DNA of 64,000 nucleotides from assembly GCF_037975245.1 (NCBI RefSeq), contig NC_092580.1, positions 11,375,501 to 11,439,500 on the forward strand. The letters are read 5' to 3'. A program made the translations under genes and the position numbers. Positions 3,450-64,000 of the stretch are shown piece by piece. The first letter of the stretch is position 1; every line of letters starts with the position of its first letter. Under the pieces are notes generated by a model. The model was not told the origin of the DNA. It was given only the letters and a program-made list of their open reading frames with translations, and ran no database searches. This stretch comes from Apostichopus japonicus (lineage: Eukaryota; Echinodermata; Holothuroidea; Aspidochirotida; Stichopodidae).

Positions 3450-30333
<26,884 letters not shown>

Positions 30334-30432
30334 CTTGATGGCATATGCAATGCTGTGCACGGTAGCCCAGCAGGTGAAGGGGTTATCCTCTCAATGGAAA
30401 GTTGGGAGTTAAAAGTCTCCCCACCTAACAAC

Positions 30433-46852: not shown

Positions 46853-47016
46853 TTATCGTAAGCAGATCCCATGATGAAGAACGGAAATGTTCTTCTTTAG
46901 AGTGCACAAGGTCTTCTTCTGGAGCTCGCAGCTGTTGTAGTAGGTGACGTCGTCCGTGCCGCATACGGGGTTGTAGACCAACGGACAGGTGAAAGTCAGA
47001 CAGAGGCTACGATCAG
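46853..47016 (-). CDS. Canonical Kazal-domain terminal exon with stop
   Basis: 164 nt, phase 1 start, acceptor GACTTCAG, stop TAA at 46853-46855. It encodes LCLTFTCPLVYNPVCGTDD, then VTYYNSCELQKKTLC and VLHHGIC: six Cys in the classical spacing. The second Cys is followed by Pro-Leu-Val-Tyr, so by the Kazal rule (P1 is two residues after the second Cys) the P1 residue is Leu, as in avian ovomucoid third domains that inhibit chymotrypsin- and elastase-like enzymes. Two residues (LR) follow the last Cys. Confidence 0.92.
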
Positions 47017-50000
47017 CTGAAGTCACAAAGGAAAAAGAAAAAGAAAATGTTGAATGATTCAGAAGTAAGAAACAAAGAAACATAGCATATGTCACATCAC
47101 CAAGCATGTAAACCTACTTTTAAGTCCACCTCGGAATATCCTGCCCGATGCCGACGAAAAGTCGTCGACGAGAACATTTTCCTGTCCATTTTGCTTGAGA
47201 GAGGGGAATATCTCATTGCAATTCATATTTCCCATTCGCAAACAAACCATAGCCCATATGCCATATCCCAACTCTTCCACCCCCATCCCCCAACCCCCAC
47301 CCCCACTCCTATCCCAGTTTGTCCTTTGTTTATGCCACTATTTCCACTCTAGCCTATAGAGCACATTGATTGGTGGTAGCAAACAGCTCACCGATAAGAT
47401 CATCCAATCCAGTGAGACACTCTCCCTTGTACAGGCTGACCAGTGTTGTGTCTCGTCTGAAACAAGCTCTTCTTCTGAGATTGCATTCCGACTGGTAGGT
47501 GTTGCCATCGCTTCCACAGACGGGACAGATATCACTCGAGCAGTGTCCGCAACCGTTGTGCACAACTGTCGATTCAGAAAAGAAGAAAAAAAAAAAGTCA
47601 ATGACCGACATTTCTCCATCAGAGGAATTTAGGCAGTTTTTCCTCTACAAAATGTGGAGAGCGATATTTTACATAACAATACAAATCATCAATATTACAA
47701 GAGCCGTGGAAACAATTAACAATACGTTGGCTCTCGCCGCAGTGCAAAAAGTGAAAAATTTCATTTCAAAGTATACGTTTTGGCCGGGTAAACAAAATTT
47801 CAAACCCAATGATGAGCCATTCTTTGCTTATTTGTGTTTTCAAGATTTCAAAACAAAATTATCTGCATAAAATTTCACAGAAAGAAAAAAGGCCCTTGGC
47901 AGGTCTGGGAATTAAAATTGGACAACAGGAGTCAAATTAAGCTAAAGGTTTCATGCAATTTAATTGCAATCATAGTAATGTGTGATATTACTCATTTCAA
48001 ATTGTCTTTGAGGAGAACTCATTTAGGAGCATATTACCACAATTTGCATGAAACAAAGTGCATAGATAACATTTGCAGGATTTTCAGCAGGCTTCTAAAT
48101 TAACTTTTCACTCTTTGCTCCAAATCATATCTTCAAAATCAAATCATTTGTATCTTACCTGGAGGAAATGTTCTTATGCGTACAGAAACAGAATCTGTTG
48201 TTTTTGTCGTCCAGTAATCTGCTGGAGTATTGAAGAAAAAAAATCAATGAATCAATGAAGAAATATAACAACTTTTTTCCCTTTTCATTTCATCCTTTGT
48301 GAATATCTTTTAAAACACTGCAGACAAACAATCCTGAGATGAAACAAGAAATTTGAGATCAACATCGGTGATTGTCTTGTACATTATTAAAGAAGCTAGT
48401 TACTACAGTTTTTGAGCAGCTCGTTGCATTGGTTTTTGGTTAATTTTCTGATAGATTAACCAAAGTAACAAAATCCTTGCACTTTGGCTTGACTTGTAAA
48501 ATTCCATTTAAATATAATGAAGAAAAAAGTGGAAAACAAGTTGAAAGTTTTTCCAATGTGCTCTTCTTTTCTTGCATGTTATTCCATCAAAATATGACAT
48601 TGCGACAATTATTTAATAGAACGGCTAGATATGGATTCTCTACATTACTAATATTCATCTGGTTAAAACAAATATTTAGTACAGTGGTGGTTGATGAATG
48701 GTTACAGAAGGTTTGGCAAACTGATTCAGCATGTAAGCATCATCGTCTTCAAAGTTGATCTCTTATTAAAGTTTGGTGGGATTAAAATGAGGAGACCTGA
48801 TAAGATATGATGAGTTATGGTATCTTACGAATGAGTTATCTGGACGTTTTGGTCAGTTGATCAAGCTAGTACTAAGCCACTCAGAAGGTTTCATATCTAC
48901 AAGGTGCGACTTCTTAATAAGTGGGTAGGCTCGTGATTAGAATAGGAGATGTTGTCTTTACATTTTGGTGAGAAATACAAGTTAACCTTCTTGGGCTTGA
49001 AAACCATTTCAAAATTTCTACTGCATGGACAAGCACAAAAAAGTGAATTCTGGGTTATACTGAGAAAGAAAAATAAGGATTGGTGATATCTTTCTCATTA
49101 CAGCAATATCTTTGACTAAAATCGGCTGGAAACTTGAATCTAATATTTATGCAACTTTAGGAAAATAAAATGCAACCAGTTTTATATGTGATCTGTCACC
49201 TAATAGCAGACAATCGACTGTATCCCTGACCTATCTATCCATCTATGTATCTATCTACTCACCTGTAGGCTCAGATGACTTGCTGAAGGCTTGTAATGTT
49301 GTCATAACCTTGTCCAGGATCTGAGTGCTACTTTTTGTGGGTGAAAGAGTCGTCGGTTTCTTCTGTCCAGAACCTTCCACGGAGGTATTGGTTTTTTCTG
49401 TTTGTTCTAGAGGAGGTCGGTCGGTGTTTGATCCCTCGATGGGTTTCGGCAACGGTGCCGGGGTACTAGTAGCTGCACTACCACCAGTATCTAATGTACT
49501 TAAAGATCTGAACAATCGTGAAGTAGCGCTGGGTGAGGACGGTGTGATGTCAGCCGTAGATAAAGACGACACAATGCCCAGAGATGACACTTCATCTGCG
49601 GTTGAGACTTGGACTGAGCCCTCCGTCGATAAACCATCTGAAACGTCTGCTCTTGCCGAAGATAGCAATTCAGCTGTGGATGCTTCCTTGGTGCTCACTA
49701 CGTTGGTAACGATAGCGGTGATTATGGGAGTCGTCGTGTCTGATGTTGTGGCGACTTCGGTTGTCGTCTCTGCCTGTGTCGGTGCCGAATGTGTCGAGTG
49801 AAGAGTGTTGCTGGTTCTTTCTGAGGTGTCGACAGAAGTCCTCTGTAGCACATCAGTGCTAGTTGACGGTTCTGCTCCTTTGGTAGCTTGGACATCAGAT
49901 GTTGTAGCATTTGCAACAATATTTTGGGTAAGAGGCACTGTTGACTCTGATGATGAGGCTTTCATTGTTGAAGTAATGTTGCGTTCTGGAGTACTGCTTA

Positions 50001-53000
50001 CGTAAGTGTGTATTTCAGATGAGGATTCTGCACTTGTTCCAAGGGAAGTCTCTCTCGTGGTAGATGAAATTGTAAACGATTCATCTGTAAGTATCACTTC
50101 TGGCACACTTGAAATTATTTCTTCAGACACTAAAGAGGTCGTTACTTTGGGTGGGGTCTCAAATACAGTTGAAGAATAGCTTGTTTTCACAGTTGTAGGT
50201 ACAATAATTGTTCTTAAAGTACTCGCAAATGTAGCTTGTGTAATATCTTCCCGAGTACTTCCTTCCTCAGTGATTGGAGCTACTGTGGATGTTGCTTCAG
50301 GCCTTTCTGGAGAACTCCTTACGGGAAATATTCTCTCTGAGGTGGTAAGCACTTGCCTTGTGGTTTCTGTTGATGAATAGGTTGTTTCTTCAGTAGTAGG
50401 TGACACTGGTGTACTAAAAGTACTCTCCAGTGTTGTTTCTTTTTCCTCTGTAGATCTCACTTCTGCTGCAGTTGAAGGTCTTTTAGTTGAAACGCCTGGA
50501 GTTTCTATCCTAGTACTTTTTTCTTCAGTAGTTGGAGCTACTGTGGATGTCGCTGCAGAGTGTTTCAAAGTACTGCTGACAGGGTTTGTTGTCTCTAATG
50601 TTGTTAGCAATTGGGTTGTGATTGCTTCTTTAGTTGATCTCAAAATTGTTTCTTCAGTAGTAGGTGACACTGATGTACTAAAAGTACTCTCCAGTGTTGT
50701 TTCTTCTTCCTCTGTAGATCTCACTTCTGCTTCAGTAGAAGGTCTTATAGTTGTAACTCCTGAGGTTTCTACTCTTGTGCTTTTTTCTTCAGTAGATGGA
50801 GCTACTGTGGATGTCACTGCAGAGCTTTTCAAAGTACTACTGACAGGGTTAATTGTCTCTAATGTGGTTAGCAATTTGGTTGTAATTGCTTCTTTAGTTG
50901 ATCTCAACACTTTTTCTTCAGTAGTAGGTGACACTGATGTACTAAATGTACTCTCCAGTGTTGTTTCTTCTTCCTCTGTAGATCTCACTTCTGCTGCAGT
51001 TGAAGGTCCTTGAGTAGTAACCTCTGAAGTTTCGACCCTAGTACTTTCTTCTTCAGTAGTTGGAGCTACTGTGGATGTCGCTGCAGAGCTTTTCAAAGTA
51101 CTACTGACAGGGTTTGTTGTCTCTAATGTTGTTAGAAATTTGGTTGTAATTGCTTCTTTAGTTGATCTCAAAATTGTTTCTTCAGTAGTAGGTGACACTG
51201 ATGTACTAAAAGTACTCTCCAGTGTTGTTTCTTCTTCCTTTGTAGATCTCACATCTGCTTCAGTAGAAGGTTGTTTAGTTGTAACTCCTGAAGTTTCTAC
51301 CCTAGTACGTTCTTCTTCAGTAGTTGGAGCTACTGTGGATGTCGCTGCAGAGCTTTTCAAAGTACTACTGACAGGGTTTGTTGTCTCTAATGTTGTTAGC
51401 AATTTGGTTGTAATTACTTCTTTAGTTGATCTCAACATTGTTTCTTCAGTAGTAGGTGACACTGATGTACTAAAAGTACTCTCCAGTGTTGTTTCTTCTT
51501 CCTCTGTAGATCCCACTTCTGCTTCAGTTGAAGGTCTTTTAGTTGTAACTCCAGAAGTTTCTACTCTTGTGCTTTCTTCTTCAGTAGTTGGAGCTACTGT
51601 GGATGTCACTGCAGAGCTTTTCAAAGTACTACGTACAGGGTTTGTTGCCTCTAATGTGGTTAGCAATTTGGTTGTAATTGCTTCTTTAGTTGATCTCAAA
51701 ATTGTTTCTTCAGTAGTAGGTGACACTGATGTACTAAATGTACTCTCCAGTGTTGTTTCTTCTTCCTCTGTAGATCTCACTTCTGCTGCAGTTGAAGGTC
51801 CTTGAGTAGTAACCTCTGAAGTTTCTACCCTAGTACTTTCTTCTTCAGTAGTTGGAGCTACTGTGGATGTCGCTGCAGAGCTTTTCAAAGTACTACTGAC
51901 TGGGTTTGTTGTCTCTAATGTTGTTAGCAATTTGGTTGTAATTGCTTCTTTAGTTGATCTCAACATTGTTTCTTCAGTAGTAGGTGACACTGATGTACTA
52001 AAAGTACTCTCCAGTGTTGTTTCTTCTTCCTCTGTAGATCTCACTTCTGCTGCAGTAGAAGGTCTTTTAGTTGTAACTCCTAAAGTTTCTATCCTAGTAC
52101 TTTCTTCTTCAGTAGTTGGAGCTACTGTGGATGTCGCTATAGAGCTTTTCAAAGTACTACTGACAGGGTTTGTTGTCTCTGATGCTGTTAGCAATTTGGT
52201 TGTTATTGCTTCTTTAGTTGATCTCAACATTGTTTCTTCAGTAGTAGGTGACACTGATGTACTAAAAGTACTCTCCAGTGTTGTTTCTTCTTCCTCTGTA
52301 GATCTCACTTCTGCTTCAGTAGAAGGTCTTTTAGTTGTAACTCCTGAAGTTTCTACTCTTGTGCTTTCTTCTTCAGTAGTTGGAGCTACTGTGGATGTCG
52401 CTGCAGAGCTTTTCAAAGTACTACTGACAGGGTTTGTTGTCTCTAATGTTGTTAGCAATTTGGTTGTAATTGCTTCTTTAGTTGATCTCAATATTTTTTC
52501 TTCAGTAGTAGGTGACACTGATGTACTGAAAGTACTCTCCAGTGTTGTTTCTTCTTCCTCTGTAGATATCACTTCTGCTGCAGTTGAAGGTTGTTTAGTT
52601 GAAACTCCAGAAGTTTCTACTCTTGTGCTTTCTTCTTCAGTAGTTGGACCAACTGTGGATGTCGCTGCAGAGCTTTTCATAGTACTACTGACAGGGTTTG
52701 TTGTCTCTAATGTTGTTAGCAATTTGGTTGTGATTACTTCTTTAGTTGATCTCAACATTTTTTCTTCAGTAGTAGGTGACACTGATGTACTAAAAGTACT
52801 CTCCAGTGTTGTTTCTTCTTCCTCTGTAGATTTCATTTCTGCTGCAGTTGAAGGTTGTTTAGTTGAAACTCCAGAAGTTTCTATCCTAGTACTTTCTTCT
52901 TCAGTAGTTGGAGCTACTGTGGATGTCGCTGCAGAGCTTTTCAAAGTACTACTGACAGGGTTTGTTGTCTCTAATGTTGTTAGCAATTTGGGTGTAATTG

Positions 53001-56000
53001 CTTCTTTAGTTGATCTCAACATATTTTCTTCAGTAGTAGGTGACACTGATGTACTAAAAGTACTCTCCAGTGTTGTTTCTTCTTCCTCTGTAGATCTCAC
53101 TTCTGCTGCAGTTGAAGGTCCTTGAGTAGTAACCTCTGAAGTTTCTACCCTAGTACTTTCTTCTTCAGTAGTTGGAGCTACTGTGGATGTCGCTGCAGAG
53201 CTTTTCAAAGTACTACTGACAGGGTTTGTTGTCTCTAATGTTGTTAGCAATTTGGTTGTAATTGCTTCTTTAGTTGATCTCAACATTGTTTCTTCAGTAG
53301 TAGGTGACACTGATGTACTAAAAGTACTCTCCAGTGTTGTTTCTTCTTCCTCTGTAGATCTCAGTTCTGCTTCAGTTGAAGGTCTTTTAGTTGTAACTCC
53401 TAAAGTTTCTATCCTAGTACTTTCTTCTTCAGTAGTTGGAGCTACTGTGGATGTCGCTATAGAGCTTTTCAAAGTACTACTGACAGGGTTTGTTGTCTCT
53501 GATGCTGTTAGCAATTTGGTTGTTATTGCTTCTTTAGTTGATCTCAACAATGTTTCTTCAGTAGTAGGTGACACTGATGTACTAAAAGTACTCTCCAGTG
53601 TTGTTTCTTCTTCCTCTGTAGATCTCACTTCTGCTTCAGTAGAAGGTCTTTTAGTTGTAACTCCTGAAGTTTCTACTCTTGTGCTTTCTTCTTCAGTAGT
53701 TGGAGCTACTGTGGATGTCGCTGCAGAGCTTTTCAAAGTACTACTGACAGGGTTTGTTGTCTCTAATGTTGTTAGCAATTTGGTTGTAATTGCTTCTTTA
53801 GTTGATCTCAATATTTTTTCTTCAGTAGTAGGTGACACTGATGTACTGAAAGTACTCTCCAGTGTTGTTTCTTCTTCCTCTGTAGATATCACTTCTGCTG
53901 CAGTTGAAGGTTGTTTAGTTGAAACTCCAGAAGTTTCTACTCTTGTGCTTTCTTCTTCAGTAGTTGGACCAACTGTGGATGTCGCTGCAGAGCTTTTCAT
54001 AGTACTACTGACAGGGTTTGTTGTCTCTAATGTTGTTAGCAATTTGGTTGTGATTACTTCTTTAGTTGATCTCAACATTTTTTCTTCAGTAGTAGGTGAC
54101 ACTGATGTACTAAAAGTACTCTCCAGTGTTGTTTCTTCTTCCTCTGTAGATCTCATTTCTGCTGCAGTAGAAGGTTGTTTAGTTGAAACTCCAGAAGTTT
54201 CTATCCTAGTACTTTCTTCTTCAGTAGTTGGAGCTACTGTGGATGTCGCTGCAGAGCTTTTCAAAGTACTACTGACAGGGTTTGTTGTCTCTAATGTTGT
54301 TAGCAATTTGGGTGTAATTGCTTCTTTAGTTGATCTCAACACATTTTCTTCAGTAGTAGGTGACACTGATGTACTAAAAGTACTCTCCAGTGTTGTTTCT
54401 TCTTCCTCTGTAGATCTCACTTCTGCTGCAGTTGAAGGTTGTTTAGTTGAAACTCCAGAAGTTTCTACTCTTGTGCTTTCTTCTTCAGTAGTTGGACCAA
54501 CTGTGGATGTCGCTGCAGAGCTTTTCATAGTACTGCTGACAGGGTTTGTTGTCTCTAATGTTGTTAGCAATTTGGTTGTGATTACTTCTTTAGTTGATCT
54601 CAAAATTTTTTCTTCAGTAGTAGGTGACACTGATGTACTGAAAGTACTCTCCAGTGTTGTTTCTTCTTCCTCTGTAGATCTCACTTCTGCTTCAGTAGAA
54701 GGTCTTTCAGTTGTAACTCCTAAAGTTTCTATCCTAGTACTTTCTTCTTCAGTAGTTGGAGCTACTGTGGATGTCGCTGCAGAGCTTTTCAAAGTACTAC
54801 TTACAGGGTTTGTTGTCTCTAATGTTGTTAGCAATTTGGTTGTTATTGCTTCTTTAGTTGATCTCAACATTTTTTCTTCAGTAGTAGGTGACACTGATGT
54901 ACTAAAGGTACTCTCCAGTGTTGTTTCTTCTTCCTCTGTAGATCTCACTTCTGCTGCAGTTGAAGGTTGTTTAGTTGAAACTCCAGAAGTTTCTACTCTT
55001 GTGCTTTCTTCTTCAGTAGTTGGACCAACTGTGGATGTCGCTGCAGAGCTTTTCATAGTACTGCTGAAAGGGTTTGTTGTCTCTAATGTTGTTAGCAATT
55101 TGGTTGTGATTACTTTAGTTGATCTCAAAATTGTTTCTTCAGTAGTAGGTGACACTGATGTACTAAAAGTACTCTCCAGTGTTGTTTCTTCTTCCTCTGT
55201 AGATCTCACTTCTGCTTCAGTAGAAGGTCTTTTAGTTGTAACTCCTAAAGTTTCTATCCTAGTACTTTCTTCTTCAGTAGTTGGAGCTACTGTGGATGTC
55301 GCTGCAGAGCTTTTCAAAGTACTACTGACAGGGTTTGTTGTCTCTAATGTTGTTAGCAATTTGGTTGTAATTGCTTCTTTAGTTGATCTCAACATTGTTT
55401 CTTCAGTAGTAGGTGACACTGATGTACTAAAAGTACTCTCCAGTGTTGTTTCTTCTTCCTCTGTAGATCTCACTTCTGCTGCAGTTGAAGGTTGTTTAGT
55501 TGAAACTCCTGAAGTTTCTACTCTTGTGCTTTCTTCTTCAGTAGTTGGACCAACTGTGGATGTCGCTGCAGAGCTTTTCATAGTACTACTGACAGGGTTT
55601 GTTGTCTCTAATGTTGTTAGCAATTTGGTTGTAATTGCTTCTTTAGTTGATCTCAAAATTGTTTCTTCAGTAGTAGGTGACACTGATGTACTAAAAGTAC
55701 TCTCCAGTGTTGTTTCTTCTTCCTCTGTAGATCTCACTTCTGCTTCAGTAGAAGGTCTTTTAGTTGTAACTCCTGAAGTTTCTATCCTAGTACGTTCTTC
55801 TTCAGTACTTGGAGCTACTGTGGATGTCGCTGCAGAGCGTTTCAAAGTACTACTGACAGGGTTTGTTGTCTCTAATGTTGTTAGCATTTGGGTTGTGATG
55901 GCTTCTTTTGTTGATCTCAAAATTGATTCTTCAGTAGTAGGTGACACTGATGTACTAAAAGTACTCTCCAGTGTTGTTTCTTCTTCCTCTGTAGATCTCA

Positions 56001-59000
56001 CTTCTGTCTCTTGTTTTGTTGATTCCAAAGTCGTTTCTTTAGTAGTGGGTAATACGGATGTATGAACAGAACTCTCCAATGTAGTCTCTTCCTTTGTTGA
56101 AACCACCATTGATGTAGTTGAAGGTCTGAGAGTTGTAATTTCTGGAGTTTCTCCCATGGTACTTTTGTCCTTGGTGGTTCGAGTAACTGAGGATATTTTT
56201 CCAGAATCGGTCCTTTCTACAGTGCTGCTTTCATACAGTGTTGTCTTTAAGGTGTTGAACACTTTGATTGTGGTCTCTTCCTCTGTTGATAACACTGGTA
56301 TTTCTTCAGTGGTAGGTGATACTGTAGTATCTTTGTAACTCACAGTTTGGCTGCTACCTGTTTCTGTTGTTTCAAGCAAGAAAACTGGAAATATTTCACT
56401 TGGTGTTTGGTCAAAGACTTCCTTGATATCCTCTTTGTCGGTAACATTAACTATTTTTATATGACGAGTTGTTCCTTCACCTGTTGGAACAATACTTCTG
56501 CCTTCACCTTGAGTTGTTAATCTGATAGATGTTGCCAGCTTAGATGTTTCTCCTGTTGTCTCTTCTTCCTCAGTAGTTAAGTCTAATATGGATGTTGCCT
56601 TAGAACTTTCCAAAGTACTCCTAAAGGGAGTTGTTATACCAAAAGTTGTGACCACTTCGATTGTTGTCTCTTCTTCAGTGGGTTTCGAAGTTGAATCTTC
56701 TCTAGCAGGTAACACTACTGTACTAACAGTAATCTCTGATGTTGTTTCTTCTTTCTTTGTAGATCTCACTTCAGCTGAAAATGAAGGTCCTTGAGTGGTA
56801 ACCTCTGAAGTTTCTACTCTAGTACTTTCTCTTTCAGAAGTTGGAGCTACTGTGGATGTTGCTTCATAGCTTTCAAGAGTGCTACTTAAAGGAGTTATCT
56901 TCTGTAATGTTGTCAAAACTTGGGCTGTTGTCTCTTCTGTTGTTTCCAAAGTTCTCTCTTTAGTAGTGGGAAACATTGATGTACTGACAGTACTCTTAAA
57001 TGTAGTTTCTTCTTCTGTGGAACTTATTTCAGCTGTAGTTGAAGGTTCGAAAGTCGTAATCTTTGAGGTTTCTACCCTACTAATTTCTTCTTCAGTAATT
57101 GGAGCTAATGTGAAAGTTGCTGCAGAGCTTTCAAGAGTACTACTCACAAGAAGGGTTGTCTCTAATGTAATCAAAACTTGGGCTGTTGTCTCTTCTTCTG
57201 TTGATTCCAAAGTTGTTTCTTCAGTAGTGGGTAACATTGATGAACTAACAGTTTCAATCCTAGTACTTTCTTCTTCAGTAGTTGGAGCTACTGTGGATGT
57301 GCCTATAGAGCTTTCAATAGTACTACCTACAGGAGTTGTTGCACTTTCAACTGAATTAGTTGGAGATACAGTGGAAGTTGCTGCGGAGCTTTCAATAGTA
57401 CTGCTTACAGGTGTTGCTGTTTCTAATGTTGTCAAGACTTTGGCTGTTGTCTCTTCTTCTGTTGATTTCAAAGTTGTTTCTTCAGTAGTGGGTAACATTG
57501 ATGTACTGAAAGTACTCTCCAATGTAGCCAATTCTTCTGTAGAACTCTTCTCAGCTGTTGTTGAAGGTTGTCGAGTTGTAATGTCTGAAGTTTCTACCCT
57601 TGTACTTTCAACTGCAGTAGTTGGAGCATCAGTGGAAGTTGCTGCAGTCTTTTCAATAGTACTACTTACGGGACTTGATGTCTCCAATGTTGTCAAGACT
57701 TTGGCTGTTGTGTCTTCTTCTGTTGATTCCAATGTTGTTTCTTCAGTTGTAGGTACCAGTGATGTACTTACAGTACTCTCAAATGAAGTATCTTCCTCTG
57801 TAGTAATCACCTCCTCTGATGGTGAGGGACTGAGAGTTGTAATAACTGAAGTTTCTACCCTACTACTTTCTTCTTCAGTAGTTGGAGATACAGTGGAAGT
57901 TGCTGCAGAGCTGTCAATAGTACTAATTACAGGTGTTGTTGTTTCTAATGTTGTCAAGACTTTGGCTGTTGTCTCTTCTTCTGTTGATTTCAAAGTTGTT
58001 TCTTCAGTAGTGGGTAACATTGATGTACGGAAAGTACTCTCAAATGTAGTTTCTTCTTCTGTAGAACTCTTCTCAGCTGTAGTTGAAGGTTGTCGAGTTA
58101 TAATGTCTGAAGTTTCTACCCTTGTGCTTTCAACTGTAGTAGTTGGAGATACATTGGTAGTTGCTGCGGAGCTTTCAATAGTACTAATTACAGGTGTTGT
58201 TGTTTCTAATGTTGTCAAGACTTTGGCTGTTGTCTCTTCTTCTGTTGATTTCAAAGTTGTTTCTTCAGTAGTGGGTAACATTGATGTACCGAAAGTACTC
58301 TCAAATGTAGTTTCTTCTTCTGTAGAACTCTTCTCAGCTGTAGTTGAAGGTTGTTGAGTTATAATGTCTGAAGTTTCTACCATAGTACTTTCTTCTACAG
58401 TAGTTGGAGCTACTGTGGATGTGCCTATAGAGCTTTCAATAGTATTACCTACAGGAGTTGTTGTAGTTTCAACTGCAGTAGTTGAAGATACAGTGGAAGT
58501 TGCTGTGGAGCCTTCAATAGTACTACTTACAGGTGTTGCTGTTTCTAATGTTGTCAAGACTTTGGCTGTTGTCTCCTCTTCTGCCAAAGTTGTTTCTTCA
58601 GTAGTTGGTAACATTGATGTACCAAAGGTACTCTCAAATGTAGTTTCTTCTTCTGTAGAACTCTTCTCAGCTGTAGTTGAAGGTTGTCGAGTTATAATGT
58701 CTGAAGTTTCTACCCTTGTACTTTCAACTGCAGTAGTTGGAGCTACAGTGGAAGTTGCTGCAGAGCCTTCAATAGTACTACTTACAGGTGTTGCTGTTTC
58801 TAATGTTGTCAAGACTTTGGCTGTTGTGTCTTCTGTTGATTCCAATGTTGTTTCTTCAGTTGTAGGTTCCAGTGATGTACTTACAGTGCTCTCAAATGTA
58901 GCTTCTTCTTCTGTAGAACTCTTCTCAGCTGTAGTTGAAGATTGTCGAGTTGTAATGTCTGTCATTTCTACCCTTGTACTTTCAACTGCAGTAGTTGGAG

Positions 59001-62000
59001 CTACAGTGGAAGTTGCTGCAGTCCTTTCAATAGTACTACTTACAGGACTTGATGTCTGTAAAGTTGTCAAGACTTTGGCTGTTGTGTCTTCTTCGGTTGA
59101 TTCCAATGTTGTTTCTTCAGTTGTAGGTACCAGTGATGTACTAACAGTACTTTCAATTGTAGTTTCTTCCTCTGTAGTACTCACCTCCTCTGATGGTGAG
59201 GGACTAAGAGTTGTAATAACTGAAGTTTCTACCCTACTACTTTCTTCTTCAGTAGTTGGAGATATAGTGGTAGTTGCTGCAAAGCCTTCAATAGTACTAC
59301 TTACAGGTGTTGCTGTTTCTAATGTTGTCAAGAATTTGGCTGTTGTCTCTTCTTCTGTTGATTTCAAAGTTGTTTCTTCAGTAGTGGGTAACATTGATGT
59401 ACCGAAAGTACTCTCATATGTAGTTTCTTCTTCTGTAGAACTCTTCTCAGCTGTAGTTGAAGGTTGTTGAGTTATAATGTCTGAAGTTTCTACCCTTGTT
59501 CTTTCAACTGCAGTAGTTGGAGATACAGTGGAAGTTGCTGCAGAGCCTTCAATAGTACTACTTACAGGTGTTGCTGTTTCTAATGTTGTCAAGACTTTGG
59601 CTGTTGTCTCTTCTTCTGTTGATTTCAAAGTTGTTTCTTCAGTAGTGGGTAACATTGATGTACCGAAAGTACTCTCAAATGTAGGTTCTTCTTCTGTAGA
59701 ACTCTTCTCAGCTGTAGTTGAAGGTTGTGGAGTTATAATGTCTGAAGTTTCTACCCTTGTGCTTTCAACTGCAGTAGTTGGAGATACAGTGGAAGTTGCT
59801 GCAGAGCCTTCAATAGTACTACTTACAGGTGTTGCTGTTTCTAATGTTGTCAAGAATTTGGCTGTTGTCTCTGCTTCTGTTGATTCCAATGCTGTTTCTT
59901 CAGTTGTAGGTACCAGTGATGTACTAACAGTACTTCCAATTGTAGATTCTTCCTCTGTAGTACTCACCTCCTTTGATGGTGAGGGACTGAGAGTTGTAAT
60001 AACTGAAGTTTCTACCATAGTACTTTCTTCTACAGTAGTTGGAGCTACTGTGGATGTGCCTATAGAGCTTTCAATAGTATTACCTACAGGAGTTGTTGTA
60101 GTTTCAACTGCAGTAGTTGAAGATACAGTGGAAGTTGCTGTGGAGCCTTCAATAGTACTACTTACAGGTGTTGCTGTTTCTAATGTTGTGAAGACTTTGG
60201 CTGTTGTCTCCTCTTCTGCCAAAGTTGTTTCTTCAGTAGTTGGTAACATTGATGTACCAAAGGTACTCTCAAATGTAGTTTCTTCTTCTGTAGAACTCTT
60301 CTCAGCTGTAGTTGAAGGTTGTCGAGTTATAATGTCTGAAGTTTCTACCCTTGTACTTTCAACTGCAGTAGTTGGAGCATCAGTGGAAGTTGCTGCAGTC
60401 ATTTCAATAGTACTACTTACGGGACTTGATGTCTCTAATGTTGTCAAGACTTTGGTTGTTGTGTCTTCTATTGTTGATTCCAATGTCGTTTCTTCAGTTG
60501 TAGGTTCCAGTGATGTACTTACAGTGCTCTCAAATGTAGCCAATTCTTCTGTAGAACTCTTCTCAGCTGTAGTTGAAGATTGTCGAGTTGTAATGTCTGT
60601 CGTTTCTACCCTTGTACTTTCAACTGCAGTAGTTGGAGATACAGTGGAAGTTGCTGCAGTCCTTTCAATAGTACTACTTACAGGACTTGATGTCTGTAAA
60701 GTTGTCAAGACTTTGGCTGTTGTGTCTTCTTCGGTTGATTCCAATGTTGTTTCTTCAGTTGTAGGTACCAGTGATGTACTAACAGTACTTTCAATTGTAG
60801 TTTCTTCCTCTGTAGTACTCACCTCCTCTGATGGTGAGGGACTAAGAGTTGTAATAACTGAAGTTTCTACCCTACTACTTTCTTCTTCAGTAGTTGGAGA
60901 TACAGTGGAAGTTGCTGCAAAGCCTTCAATAGTACTACTTACAGGTGTTGCTGTTTCTAATGTTGTCAAGAATTTGGCTGTTGTCTCTTCTTCTGTTGAT
61001 TTCAAAGTTGTTTCTTCAGTAGTGGGTAACATTGATGTACCGAAAGTACTCTCAAATGTAGTTTCTTCTTCTGTAGAACTCTTCTCAGCTGTAGTTGAAG
61101 GTTGTTGAGTTATAATGTCTGAAGTTTCTACCCTTGTTCTTTCAACTGCAGTAGTTGGAGATACAGTGGAAGTTGCTGCAGAGCCTTCAATAGTACTACT
61201 TACAGGTGTTGCTGTTTCTAATGTTGTCAAGACTTTGGCTGTTGTCTCTTCTTCTGTTGATTTCAAAGTTGTTTCTTCAGTAGTGGGTAACATTGATGTA
61301 CCGAAAGTACTCTCAAATGTAGTTTCTTCTTCTGTAGAACTCTTCTCAGCTGTAGTTGAAGGTTGTGGAGTTATAATGTCTGAAGTTTCTACCCTTGTAC
61401 TTTCAACTGCAGTAGTTGGAGATACAGTGGAAGTTGCTGCAGAGCTTTCAATAGTACTACTTACAGGTGTTGCTGTTTCTAATGTTGTCAAGAATTTGGC
61501 TGTTGTCTCTGCTTCTGTTGATTCCAATGTTGTTTCTTCAGTTGTAGGTACCAGTGATGTACTAACAGTACTTCCAATTGTAGATTCTTCCTCTGTAGTA
61601 CTCACCTCCTTTGATGGTGAGGGACTGAGAGTTGTAATAACTGAAGTTTCTACCATAGTACTTTCTTCTACAGTAGTTGGAGCTACTGTGGATGTGCCTA
61701 TAGAGCTTTCAATAGTATTACCTACAGGAGTTGTTGTAGTTTCAACTGCAGTAGTTGAAGATACAGTGGAAGTTGCTGTGGAGCCTTCAATAGTACTACT
61801 TACAGGTGTTGCTGTTTCTAATGTTGTGAAGACTTTGGCTGTTGTCTCCTCTTCTGCCAAAGTTGTTTCTTCAGTAGTTGGTAACATTGATGTACCAAAG
61901 GTACTCTCAAATGTAGTTTCTTCTTCTGTAGAACTCTTCTCAGCTGTAGTTGAAGGTTGTCGAGTTATAATGTCTGAAGTTTCTACCCTTGTACTTTCAA

Positions 62001-64000
62001 CTGCAGTAGTTGGAGCATCAGTGGAAGTTGCTGCAGTCATTTCAATAGTACTACTTACGGGACTTGATGTCTCTAATGTTGTCAAGACTTTGGTTGTTGT
62101 GTCTTCTATTGTTGATTCCAATGTCGTTTCTTCAGTTGTAGGTTCCAGTGATGTACTTACAGTGCTCTCAAATGTAGCTTCTTCTTCTGTAGAACTCTTC
62201 TCAGCTGTAGTTGAAGATTGTCGAGTTGTAATGTCTGTCGTTTCTACCCTTGTACTTTCAACTGCAGTAGTTGGAGATACAGTGGAAGTTGCTGCAGTCC
62301 TTTCAATAGTACTACTTACGGGACTTGATGTCTCTAATGTTGTCAAGACTTTGGCTGTTGTGTCTTCTTCGGTTGATTCCAATGTTGTTTCTTCAGTTGA
62401 AGGTACCAGTGATGTACTAACAGTACTTTCAATTGTAGTTTCTTCCTCTGTAGTACTCACCTCCTCTGATGGTGAGGGACTGAGAGTTGTAATAACTGAA
62501 GTTTCTACCCTACTACTTTCTTCTTCAGTAGTTGGAGTTACAGTGGAAGTTGCTGCGGAGCTTTCAATAGTACTAATTACAGGTGTTGTTGTTTCTAATG
62601 TTGTCAAGACTTTGGCTGTTGTCTCTTCTTCTGTTGATCCCAGTGTCGTTTCTTCAGTAGTGGGTAACATTGATGTACCGAAAGTACTCTCAAATGTAGT
62701 TTCTTCTTCTGTAGAACTCTTCTCAGCTGTAGTTGAAGGTTGTGGAGTTATAATGTCTGAAGTTTCTACCCTTGTACTTTCAACTGCAGTAGTTGGAGAT
62801 ACAGTGGAAGTTGCTGCAGAGCCTTCAATAGTACTACTTACAGGTGTTGCTGTTTCTAATGTTGTCAAGACTTTGGCTGTTGTCTCTTCTTCTGTTGATT
62901 TCAAAGTTGTTTCTTCAGTAGTGGGTAACATTGATGTACCGAAAGTACTCTCAAATGTAGTTTCTTCTTCTGTAGAACTCTTCTCAGCTGTAGTTGAAGG
63001 TTGTTGAGTTATAATGTCTGAAGTTTCTACCCTTGTACTTTCAACTGCAGTAGTTGGAGATACAGTGGAAGTTGCTGCAGAGCCTTCAATAGTACTACTT
63101 ACAGGTGTTGCTGTTTCTAATGTTGTCAAGAATTTGGCTGTTGTCTCTGCTTCTGTTGATTCCAATGTTGTTTCTTCAGTTGTAGGTACCAGTGATGTAT
63201 TAACAGTACTTTCAATTGTAGTTTCTTCCTCTGTAGTACTCACCTCCTCTGAAGGTGAGGGACTGAGAGTTGTAATAACTGAAGTTTCTACCATAGTACT
63301 TTCTTCTACAGTAGTTGGAGCTACTGTGGATGTGCCTATAGAGCTTTCAATAGTATTACCTACAGGAGTTGTTATAGTTTCAACTGCAGTAGTTGAAGAT
63401 ACAGTGGAAGTTGCTGTGGAGCCTTCAATAGTACTACTTACAGGTGTTGCTGTTTCTAATGTTGTGAAGACTTTGGCTGTTGTCTCCTCTTCTGCCAAAG
63501 TTGTTTCTTCAGTAGTTGGTAACATTGATGTACCAAAGGTACTCTCAAATGTAGTTTCTTCTTCTGTAGAACTCTTCTCAGCTGTAGTTGAAGGTTGTCG
63601 AGTTATAATATCTGAAGTTTCTATGCTTGTACTTTCAACTGCAGTAGTTGGAGATACAGTGGAAGTTGCTGCGGAGCTTTCAATAGTACTACTTACAGGT
63701 GTTGTTGTTTCTAATGTTGTCAAGACTTTGGCTGTTGTGTCTTCTTCTGTTGCTTCCAATGTTGTTTCTTCAGTTGTAGGTACCAGTGATGTACTTAATG
63801 TGCTCTCAAATGTAGCTTCTTCTTCTGTAGAACTCTTCTCAGCTGTTGTTGAAGGTTGTCGAGTTGTAATGTCTGAAGTTTCTACCCTAGTACTTTCAAC
63901 TGCAGTTGTTGGAGATACAGTGGAAGTTGTTGCGGAGCTTTCATAAGTACTACTTAGAGGTGTTGTTGTTTCTAATGTTGTCAAGACTTTGGCTGTTGTC
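46853..64000 (-). CDS. Giant mucin-like Thr/Ser/Glu-rich repeat protein with two C-terminal Kazal domains, 5' end outside window
   Basis: Exons 5' to 3': beyond 64000 to 49263, 48221-48159, 47565-47392, 47016-46853. All junctions are GT-AG and every intron is phase 1. The big exon alone gives more than 4900 residues, dominated by Thr, Ser and Glu with regular Pro: a PTS-type domain of the kind that is heavily O-glycosylated in mucins, here also strongly acidic. It has almost no Cys. After a short linker exon come two Kazal-type domains, then the stop. Kazal domains are serine-protease inhibitor or extracellular modules, so the product is very probably secreted or cell-surface, but signal peptide and N-terminal domains lie outside the window. 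I know no named gene with this arrangement. Roles such as a protease-resistant mucus or matrix component are inference. Confidence 0.85.
47392..47565 (-). CDS. Atypical Kazal-domain exon
   Basis: 174 nt, phase 1 to phase 1, acceptor TCGACAG, donor GTGAGC. It encodes NGCGHCSSDICPVCGSDG, then NTYQSECNLRRRAC and SLYKGEC. The PVCGSDGxTY core and the C-x-L spacing are Kazal or follistatin-like. There are seven Cys, and only two residues separate the Cys before PVC from its Cys, where inhibitors usually have about six or seven. The normal reactive-site loop is therefore missing. It may be structural. Confidence 0.85.
48159..48221 (-). CDS. Linker exon of the mucin-Kazal gene
   Basis: 63 nt, phase 1 at both ends, acceptor ATACTCCAG, donor GTAAGATA. 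It encodes ADYWTTKTTDSVSVRIRTFPP. A second AG three bases in gives an alternative acceptor that would drop one residue. It is too short to be found by frame length; support is splice sites, phase and the continued Thr/Ser composition. Confidence 0.75.
49263..64000 (-). CDS. Giant mucin-like repeat exon (over 14.7 kb), open at the window edge
   Basis: One uninterrupted frame from the window edge to the donor GTGAGTAG at 49262. From N- to C-terminal side it has array A (64000 to about 57200), a transitional diverged part (57200-56010), array B (about 56010-50388) and a non-repetitive Ser/Thr-rich tail (50388-49263) ending KSSEPTG. It has no recognisable globular domain and very few Cys. An open frame over this length in a repeat shows selection against stops or very recent expansion. 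Confidence 0.9.
50388..56010 (-). repeat. Array B: 264-bp (88-residue) coding repeats, about 21 copies
   Basis: The protein unit contains TTEEESTRVETSGV, EVRSTEEEETTLEST, FSTSVSPTTEE, LRSTKEAITTKLLTT and NPVSSTLKSSAATSTVAP. The DNA marker TGGAGCTACTGTGGATGTCG recurs at 51061, 51325, 51589 and 51853, exactly 264 bp apart. Subtypes (TLKSS or TMKSS; STVAP or STVGP; TTKRP or STKQP) alternate. One three-base deletion is seen in a copy at about 55110. Confidence 0.95.
57205..64000 (-). repeat. Array A: about 261-bp (87-residue) coding repeats in a 1638-bp higher-order unit
   Basis: The protein unit contains TTLETATPVSSTIE, SPTTAVESTRVETSD, QPSTTAEKSSTEEE and TFGTSMLPTTEETT. Variants of the unit are arranged in a fixed order. 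The marker GAAGTTTCTACCATAG occurs at 58370, 60005, 61643 and 63281, spacings of 1635, 1638 and 1638 bp. A short variant unit lacks the KSTE segment and is followed by a spliced-in TTPVGNTIESSIGTSTVAP segment; this marks each higher-order copy. The array continues beyond the window. Confidence 0.93.

Follow-up and report, generated by a model that had tools for sequence, protein, structure and literature searches.

Large repeat exons are usual in mucins. The largest human exon is reported to lie in MUC12, whose longest predicted protein has 23,080 residues (PMC13345508), while the central exon of MUC5B, with a 29-residue unit (PMC10983947), has been described as a super-repeat (Desseyn 1997, title cited in PMC10983947). 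Higher-order repeats are also found within protein-coding genes in the NBPF/Olduvai 3mer (PMC11675761). The largest spidroin coding sequence in a 2019 paper, that of spider AgSp1, comprises 42,270 bp with one intron (PMC6553539). In the higher-order repeats of alpha-satellite DNA, blocks are more alike than the units inside them and the array edges are diverged. Human titin is close in length to the protein predicted here, and longer proteins are known outside animals, namely PKZILLA in an alga and those of Omnitrophota in bacteria; PMC12300183 gives no lengths for them.

The locus described here, from the sea cucumber Apostichopus japonicus, resembles MUC12 and other mucin central exons in that a single, very large coding exon holds tandem repeats rich in Ser and Thr. 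However, it carries 33,871 codons in that one exon, has Kazal domains on both sides, and is Glu-rich and Pro-poor. It shares with MUC5B the presence of subdomains in a larger repeat inside a mucin central exon, but the 10.7-kb exon of MUC5B is about a tenth of the giant exon, and the unit and the domains differ. The NBPF units are about 1.6 kb long, whereas here 261-bp units are nested in blocks within one uninterrupted exon. As in AgSp1, the predicted product would be extremely long, repetitive, Thr-rich, secreted and likely O-glycosylated; AgSp1, in contrast, is Gly/Pro-rich, ends in spidroin termini and has the much shorter, once-interrupted coding sequence given above. Unlike centromeric alpha-satellite, the giant exon is coding, lies inside a gene and has its frame under selection, and unlike titin, the predicted protein is nearly all in one exon. 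Given the mucin exons and the MUC5B super-repeat, nested coding repeats are not new in kind. What is exceptional is the size combined with an intact frame, the giant exon being longer than the coding sequences of both MUC12 and AgSp1. Neither a larger animal coding exon nor this gene was found in the open-access literature searched, most subscription papers being outside its scope.

The window, that is, the whole stretch of 64,000 bp that was analysed, ends inside the repeat. On the minus strand, the window holds 4,914 open codons, and the frame crosses its edge without a stop. Read on through the next 90 kb of the chromosome, it extends stop-free from 150936 to 49258 in extended coordinates (the window numbering carried on upstream past 64000), which gives 33,893 codons. 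A search of the genome returned the same open-frame length independently of the concatenated reading. The giant exon measures 101,616 bp, is divisible by three, holds 33,871 whole codons and has GT-AG borders in phase 1-1 (acceptor TTGCTTTCTGTTTCAG/AC, donor CTACAG/GTGAGT, the slash marking the border). No N bases occur in the window or in the pieces holding the giant exon. The preliminary description, made from the sequence alone, had placed the feature at 57205-64000; this is one end of it only, as a further 87 kb or so of the frame lies outside the window. The coordinates of the features are listed in the table.

Table. Coordinates of the giant exon, its repeat blocks and the predicted neighbouring exons, in window numbering unless stated otherwise.
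Feature	Position	Strand	Remarks
Predicted last exon, Kazal domain 6 and TAA stop	46853..47016	-	Pfam Kazal_2 42.1 bits
Predicted exon, Kazal domain 5	47392..47565	-	Pfam Kazal_2 36.7 bits, cut-off 22.8
Predicted 63-bp exon	48159..48221	-	phase 1-1
Giant exon, in-window part (3' end)	49263..64000	-	continues to extended coordinate 150878 (C20:11526378); acceptor TTTCAG/AC
Giant exon 3' end, non-array, Ser/Thr-rich	49263..50381	-	best self-match 41-64% in last two bins
Array B	50382..56006	-	264-bp units, 21.3 copies, 93% matches; weaker 1320-bp (5-unit) block at 96-100%
Decayed fourth block, array A edge	56968..58605	-	partial match; 126-bp bins 43-99% to block 1 or 2
Higher-order block 3	58606..60240	-	1635 bp, one 3-bp deletion
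Higher-order block 2	60241..61878	-	1638 bp; 98.2% to block 1, 98.5% to block 3
Higher-order block 1	61879..63516	-	1638 bp: 333-bp hybrid unit and five 261-bp units
Candidate signal-peptide exon	162984-163074 (extended coordinates)		hydrophobicity screen and phase-1 donor; no signal-peptide program

The first 337 residues of the exon matched only themselves in the genome (30/30 candidates scored). In the genome search with the 87-residue unit, the best 150 of 401 candidates all lay inside the giant exon; paralogues of the unit are not excluded, because the other 251 candidates were unscored. The opposite (plus) strand of the arrays is also open, at window positions 51014-56065 and in other stretches, with up to 1,466 codons in the exon. 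This openness follows from the repetition of a unit of 3n length and shows that, in repeats, little can be concluded from the length of a frame by itself.

Within the window, the preliminary description had claimed that array A is built of 87-residue subtypes in a fixed order, that the whole block recurs every 1638 bp at four markers, and that corresponding parts of the blocks are more alike than neighbouring units. The recurrence and the marker positions held exactly: a 40-base marker has exact copies at 58370, 60005, 61643 and 63281, although one spacing is 1635 (1635, 1638 and 1638). The best shifts of the region 57200-64000 against itself were 4911 (79.3% identity, equal to three blocks), 1638 (78.4%) and 261 (71.5%). 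At a shift of 1638, all 15 of the 200-bp bins between 59.0 and 62.0 kb were 96-100% identical, with 87% and 90% in the flanking bins, while a shift of 261 gave 32-98% in the same bins. A uniform identity of all 261-bp units with no 1638-bp periodicity, which would have refuted the block structure, is not what these self-shifts show.

The block consists of five 261-bp units and one 333-bp hybrid unit, a normal unit with 24 codons duplicated inside it. The composition of 87-residue subtypes was therefore only partly confirmed, as the block is not a whole number of 261-bp units. The recurrence of the whole block at four markers was likewise confirmed in part, since three blocks are complete and the fourth is partial only. 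The fixed order of the subtypes holds locally, with other block lengths elsewhere in the same exon. The three full blocks show pairwise identities of 98.2, 97.1 and 98.5%, with a single 3-bp gap. Self-comparison and pairwise identities of the units, the check proposed for the claim about corresponding parts, placed between-block identity clearly above within-block identity, and this claim held. Units at the same position in different blocks had a median identity of 98.5% (range 94.3-100%, 21 pairs), compared with 87.7% (range 74.0-97.7%) for units at different positions in the same block, where 60 of 63 pairs were comparable and three were left out for too little shared sequence. The overlap of the two ranges comes from a pair of neighbouring units in the block with 96-98% identity. 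No inverted repeats of at least 20 bp were present in 57000-64000.

The unit profile search of the whole exon yielded 399 related units of about 87 codons, 383 of which covered more than 70% of the profile. The median identity of a unit to its nearest relative was 99.6% (397 units), whereas to its adjacent neighbour it was 87.8% (390 pairs); unit pairs sharing fewer than 120 bases were left out of this comparison. Several block regimes were observed along the exon, e.g., 1554, 1566, 1638, 3132 and 6666 bp. When the exon was divided into 194 bins of 522 bp, 146 had a copy at 98% or more elsewhere in it, and for these 146 the best copy never lay at a distance of one unit. The most frequent best offsets were 1566 and 3132 bp (10 bins each), 6666 bp (nine bins), and 1554 and 1638 bp (seven bins each). 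Collinear unit pairs at 98% or more numbered 664, as against 74.7 ± 13.2 (maximum 128) in 500 permutations of the unit order, and collinear triples 321, as against 2.2 ± 1.6 (maximum 8) in 500 permutations, which excludes a chance recurrence of the unit order. By its organisation, the exon is thus a higher-order repeat, as both criteria, an excess of same-position identity and a unit order beyond chance, are met.

Near-identical pairs accounted for 9.7% at distances of 1.5-3 kb, 6.1% below 1.5 kb and 1.3% above 48 kb, and their median distance was 14.1 kb compared with 27.2 kb in 300 permutations (units 8-366 of 399). The mean identity scarcely fell with distance (0.868 to 0.863), and the locality is present in the near-identical pairs only. 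The poorest self-matches are at the exon ends, as unequal exchange predicts, and some interior bins are poor too. Block-wise exchange is the best account of the nested repeat, because identity is higher between blocks than within them and near-identical pairs are commonest 1.5-3 kb apart and not between adjacent units. The block-wise unequal exchange or gene conversion proposed earlier is supported to this extent; crossing-over and gene conversion cannot be separated from one haplotype. A four-unit cassette (MKLN) was also found in six dispersed copies at exon-sense offsets of about 13.5, 25.0, 44.8, 50.5, 58.7 and 62.2 kb, together with two partial copies. The six copies lie up to 49 kb apart and have a median identity of 100% (lowest 98.1%, 60 comparisons). 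This cassette suggests conversion or dispersed block copying besides tandem growth.

The coding constraint was analysed on clusters of similar units, with only single-base codon differences counted. In the clusters at 4% distance, 381 distinct single-base variants comprised 144 synonymous and 237 nonsynonymous changes and no stops. The same 381 changes placed at random (300 runs) gave 101.6 synonymous changes, 263.7 nonsynonymous changes and 15.7 stops, the fewest stops being 6. Coarser clusters (t=0.10 and 0.25) gave 0/469 and 0/355 stops, as against 21.3 and 15.4 expected. The 169 singleton variants comprised 64 synonymous changes, 105 nonsynonymous changes and no stops (47, 116 and 6.0 expected). 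Clusters were required to have at least two members at t=0.04, at least three at t=0.10 and 0.25, and at least four in the singleton analysis. For the two shifted frames, analysed on 10% clusters with 100 runs, 45 and 29 stops were counted, compared with 37.0 ± 4.6 and 31.3 ± 5.6 simulated, and 102 and 67 synonymous changes, compared with 105.1 and 80.1. Purifying selection therefore acts in one frame only, and the shifted frames behave as neutral. The constraint on amino acids is mild (ratio 0.63-0.84). All 2078 of the 2078 offsets at 90% identity or more, among the listed top matches of each bin, were multiples of three. The earlier statement that the repeat is coding held, both by the open frame and by this frame-specific constraint.

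The predicted gene consists of a signal-peptide candidate, four Kazal exons, the giant exon, a small exon of 63 bp and two further Kazal exons, the second of which ends in a TAA stop. The joined model is in one frame and has eight introns, all GT-AG and all in phase 1; the flanking splice sites were picked by eye to fit one frame, and the model is without transcript or peptide evidence. The protein predicted by the model has 34,262 residues, 3.64 MDa, a pI of 4.05 and 36 cysteines, none of them in the giant exon, and would seem to rank among the longest known from animals. All six predicted Kazal exons scored above the Pfam cut-off, Kazal 3 with an atypical Cys pattern and a score barely over it (24.9 vs 22.8). 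Dozens of Kazal matches at a spacing of about 961 bp were also observed on the plus strand of another contig (C10:6.67-6.93 Mb), which is another large tandem array of Kazal-coding exons.

The product of the giant exon contains 31% Thr, 17.5% Glu, 14.8% Ser and 4.4% Pro, with Ser and Thr together at 46%; some of these percentages come from a version of the exon 201 bp shorter at the 5' end, begun at an internal copy of the exon start. The usual thresholds for a mucin-type PTS domain are at least 40% Ser+Thr and at least 5% Pro over 100 residues. The first was met in 95.9% of 33,772 windows of 100 residues, the second in 42%, and both in 39%. A proline content of 4.4% is probably low for a classical mucin. 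The domains of gel-forming mucins (von Willebrand D, CysD and C-terminal cystine-knot) were not found; Pfam matches of the six flanking products were to Kazal families, apart from a single one below the cut-off. The Pfam scan of the giant exon covered three stretches only, but the absence of cysteine excludes CysD and von Willebrand domains inside it. No SEA domain was detected in the scanned products (the three exon stretches and the flanking products), and no transmembrane predictor was used; the gene model ends right after a Kazal domain. Pfam matches in the array to TetR_C_40 and ID were rejected as compositional noise, since no stretch passes on its own. The term 'mucin' in the preliminary description thus applies loosely, with 46% Ser+Thr set against the low proline and the Kazal flanking domains, and a Kazal-capped, mucin-like giant protein is likely the best name.

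We consider it likely (probability about 0.8, in the absence of transcript, peptide or raw-read data) that the feature forms the central exon for a giant, mucin-like secreted protein with Kazal caps, and that its array grows by in-frame blocks. Under this reading, it is inferred that one transcript carries the whole 101,616-bp exon. The product (about 34,262 residues, pI about 4, the repeat part cysteine-free with 46% Ser+Thr) would, as inferred from composition, be secreted and O-glycosylated, and it may form an acidic filament of the bottle-brush type in mucus or extracellular matrix, the Kazal (inhibitor-type) ends resisting proteases or anchoring the filament. Unequal crossing-over and/or gene conversion would enlarge and homogenise the array in in-frame blocks of about 1-7 kb. 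Selection would remove frame-breaking copies, so that only length changes in multiples of three would remain. Block turnover would alter the length of the filament and not its chemistry, so its length may drift while the frame is held.

The alternative that survives best, though it is unlikely, is that internal splicing in the array removes much of the 101.6 kb and leaves a much shorter protein. Donor-like strings are present in the sense strand (110 GTRAGT and 32 AGGTRAG), AGGTRAG is commoner there than after synonymous shuffling (32 vs 5.7), and no RNA evidence is at hand to exclude this alternative. However, the crude acceptor (a run of at least nine pyrimidines with CAG no more than four bases downstream) occurs 0 times in the sense strand versus 447 times in the antisense strand, and the variants along the entire array are without stops. 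With only 4.3 ± 3.7 of them expected from synonymous shuffles, the missing sense-strand acceptors reflect composition and are not proof of avoidance. Nor did the comparison of the exon with synonymous shuffles show that cryptic splice or poly(A) signals are avoided (AATAAA 0 vs 0.9, ATTAAA 11 vs 10.5, GTAAGT 74 vs 83.2 expected).

An error in the assembled length or order of a genuine coding array, through collapse, expansion or mis-joining of near-identical blocks, is very unlikely. Arrays are hard to assemble in general, and a single assembly was available, without raw reads. Against this, the frame is intact across every join and the exon contains no N. Exact repetition inside the exon reaches 2,988 bp at most, and near-identity (about 98.5% or more) extends over up to 4,744 bp (scanned at offsets divisible by three only). 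Both lengths are well below the mean length of the HiFi reads of the matching A. japonicus assembly (14,729 bp, 64x; PMC10344927), so single reads should span the repeats of the exon, although the copy number stands without a read check.

A non-coding satellite whose unit is open by chance, amplified so recently that stops have not yet arisen, is all but excluded. In its favour, the copies differ little (median 99.6% to the nearest relative), and an open frame is passed on by tandem amplification. However, the lack of frame-specific constraint expected of such a satellite was not observed: there were 0/381 stops vs 15.7 expected, and synonymous changes were in excess in this frame alone, with neutral shifted frames. 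Unit pairs are often only 80-92% identical, so that there was time enough for stops, and Kazal exons with in-phase splice sites lie on both sides.

The Kazal-capped coding exon thus remains the preferred reading. A bolder version, to which we give slightly more credence than to its opposite, is that this is the longest uninterrupted animal coding exon known, encoding a Kazal-capped, titin-sized secreted glycoprotein, held open by selection while in-frame blocks of 1-7 kb are turned over by recombination, and thus a coding satellite for which many-kb differences between individuals are expected. The record for an animal coding exon in that version rests on the literature searched. If transcripts confirm the model, one animal exon would have about 1.5 times as many codons as the longest MUC12 protein has residues (33,871 vs 23,080). 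Two questions would become testable: how a coding sequence of about 103 kb, nearly all of it a single exon, can be recognised by the splicing machinery and translated with no loss, and how exchange among blocks preserves the frame. At this locus, purifying selection can be measured in the same DNA as satellite-type turnover. A UniProt survey found two echinoderms to have the most proteins longer than 5000 residues (PMC11573180), and such genes may therefore be commoner than annotation shows.

Some further features were noted outside the gene. A 24-bp minisatellite of 37.8 copies occupies window positions 7781-8687, and its minus strand is open with a repeat of the RYYTPGAF type. On the minus strand at window positions 28810-30390 there is a large exon with EPL1, PHD and extended-PHD domains, which we take to be that of a BRPF-type chromatin protein. 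The 16-kb mitochondrial contig (C35) bears COX1 followed by frames read as ND4L and COX2, and it translates sensibly if AAA is taken as Asn, a gene order and code that mark an echinoderm. COX1-like pieces, partly rearranged or repeated, also occur on a second, small contig (C29:14745-31219).
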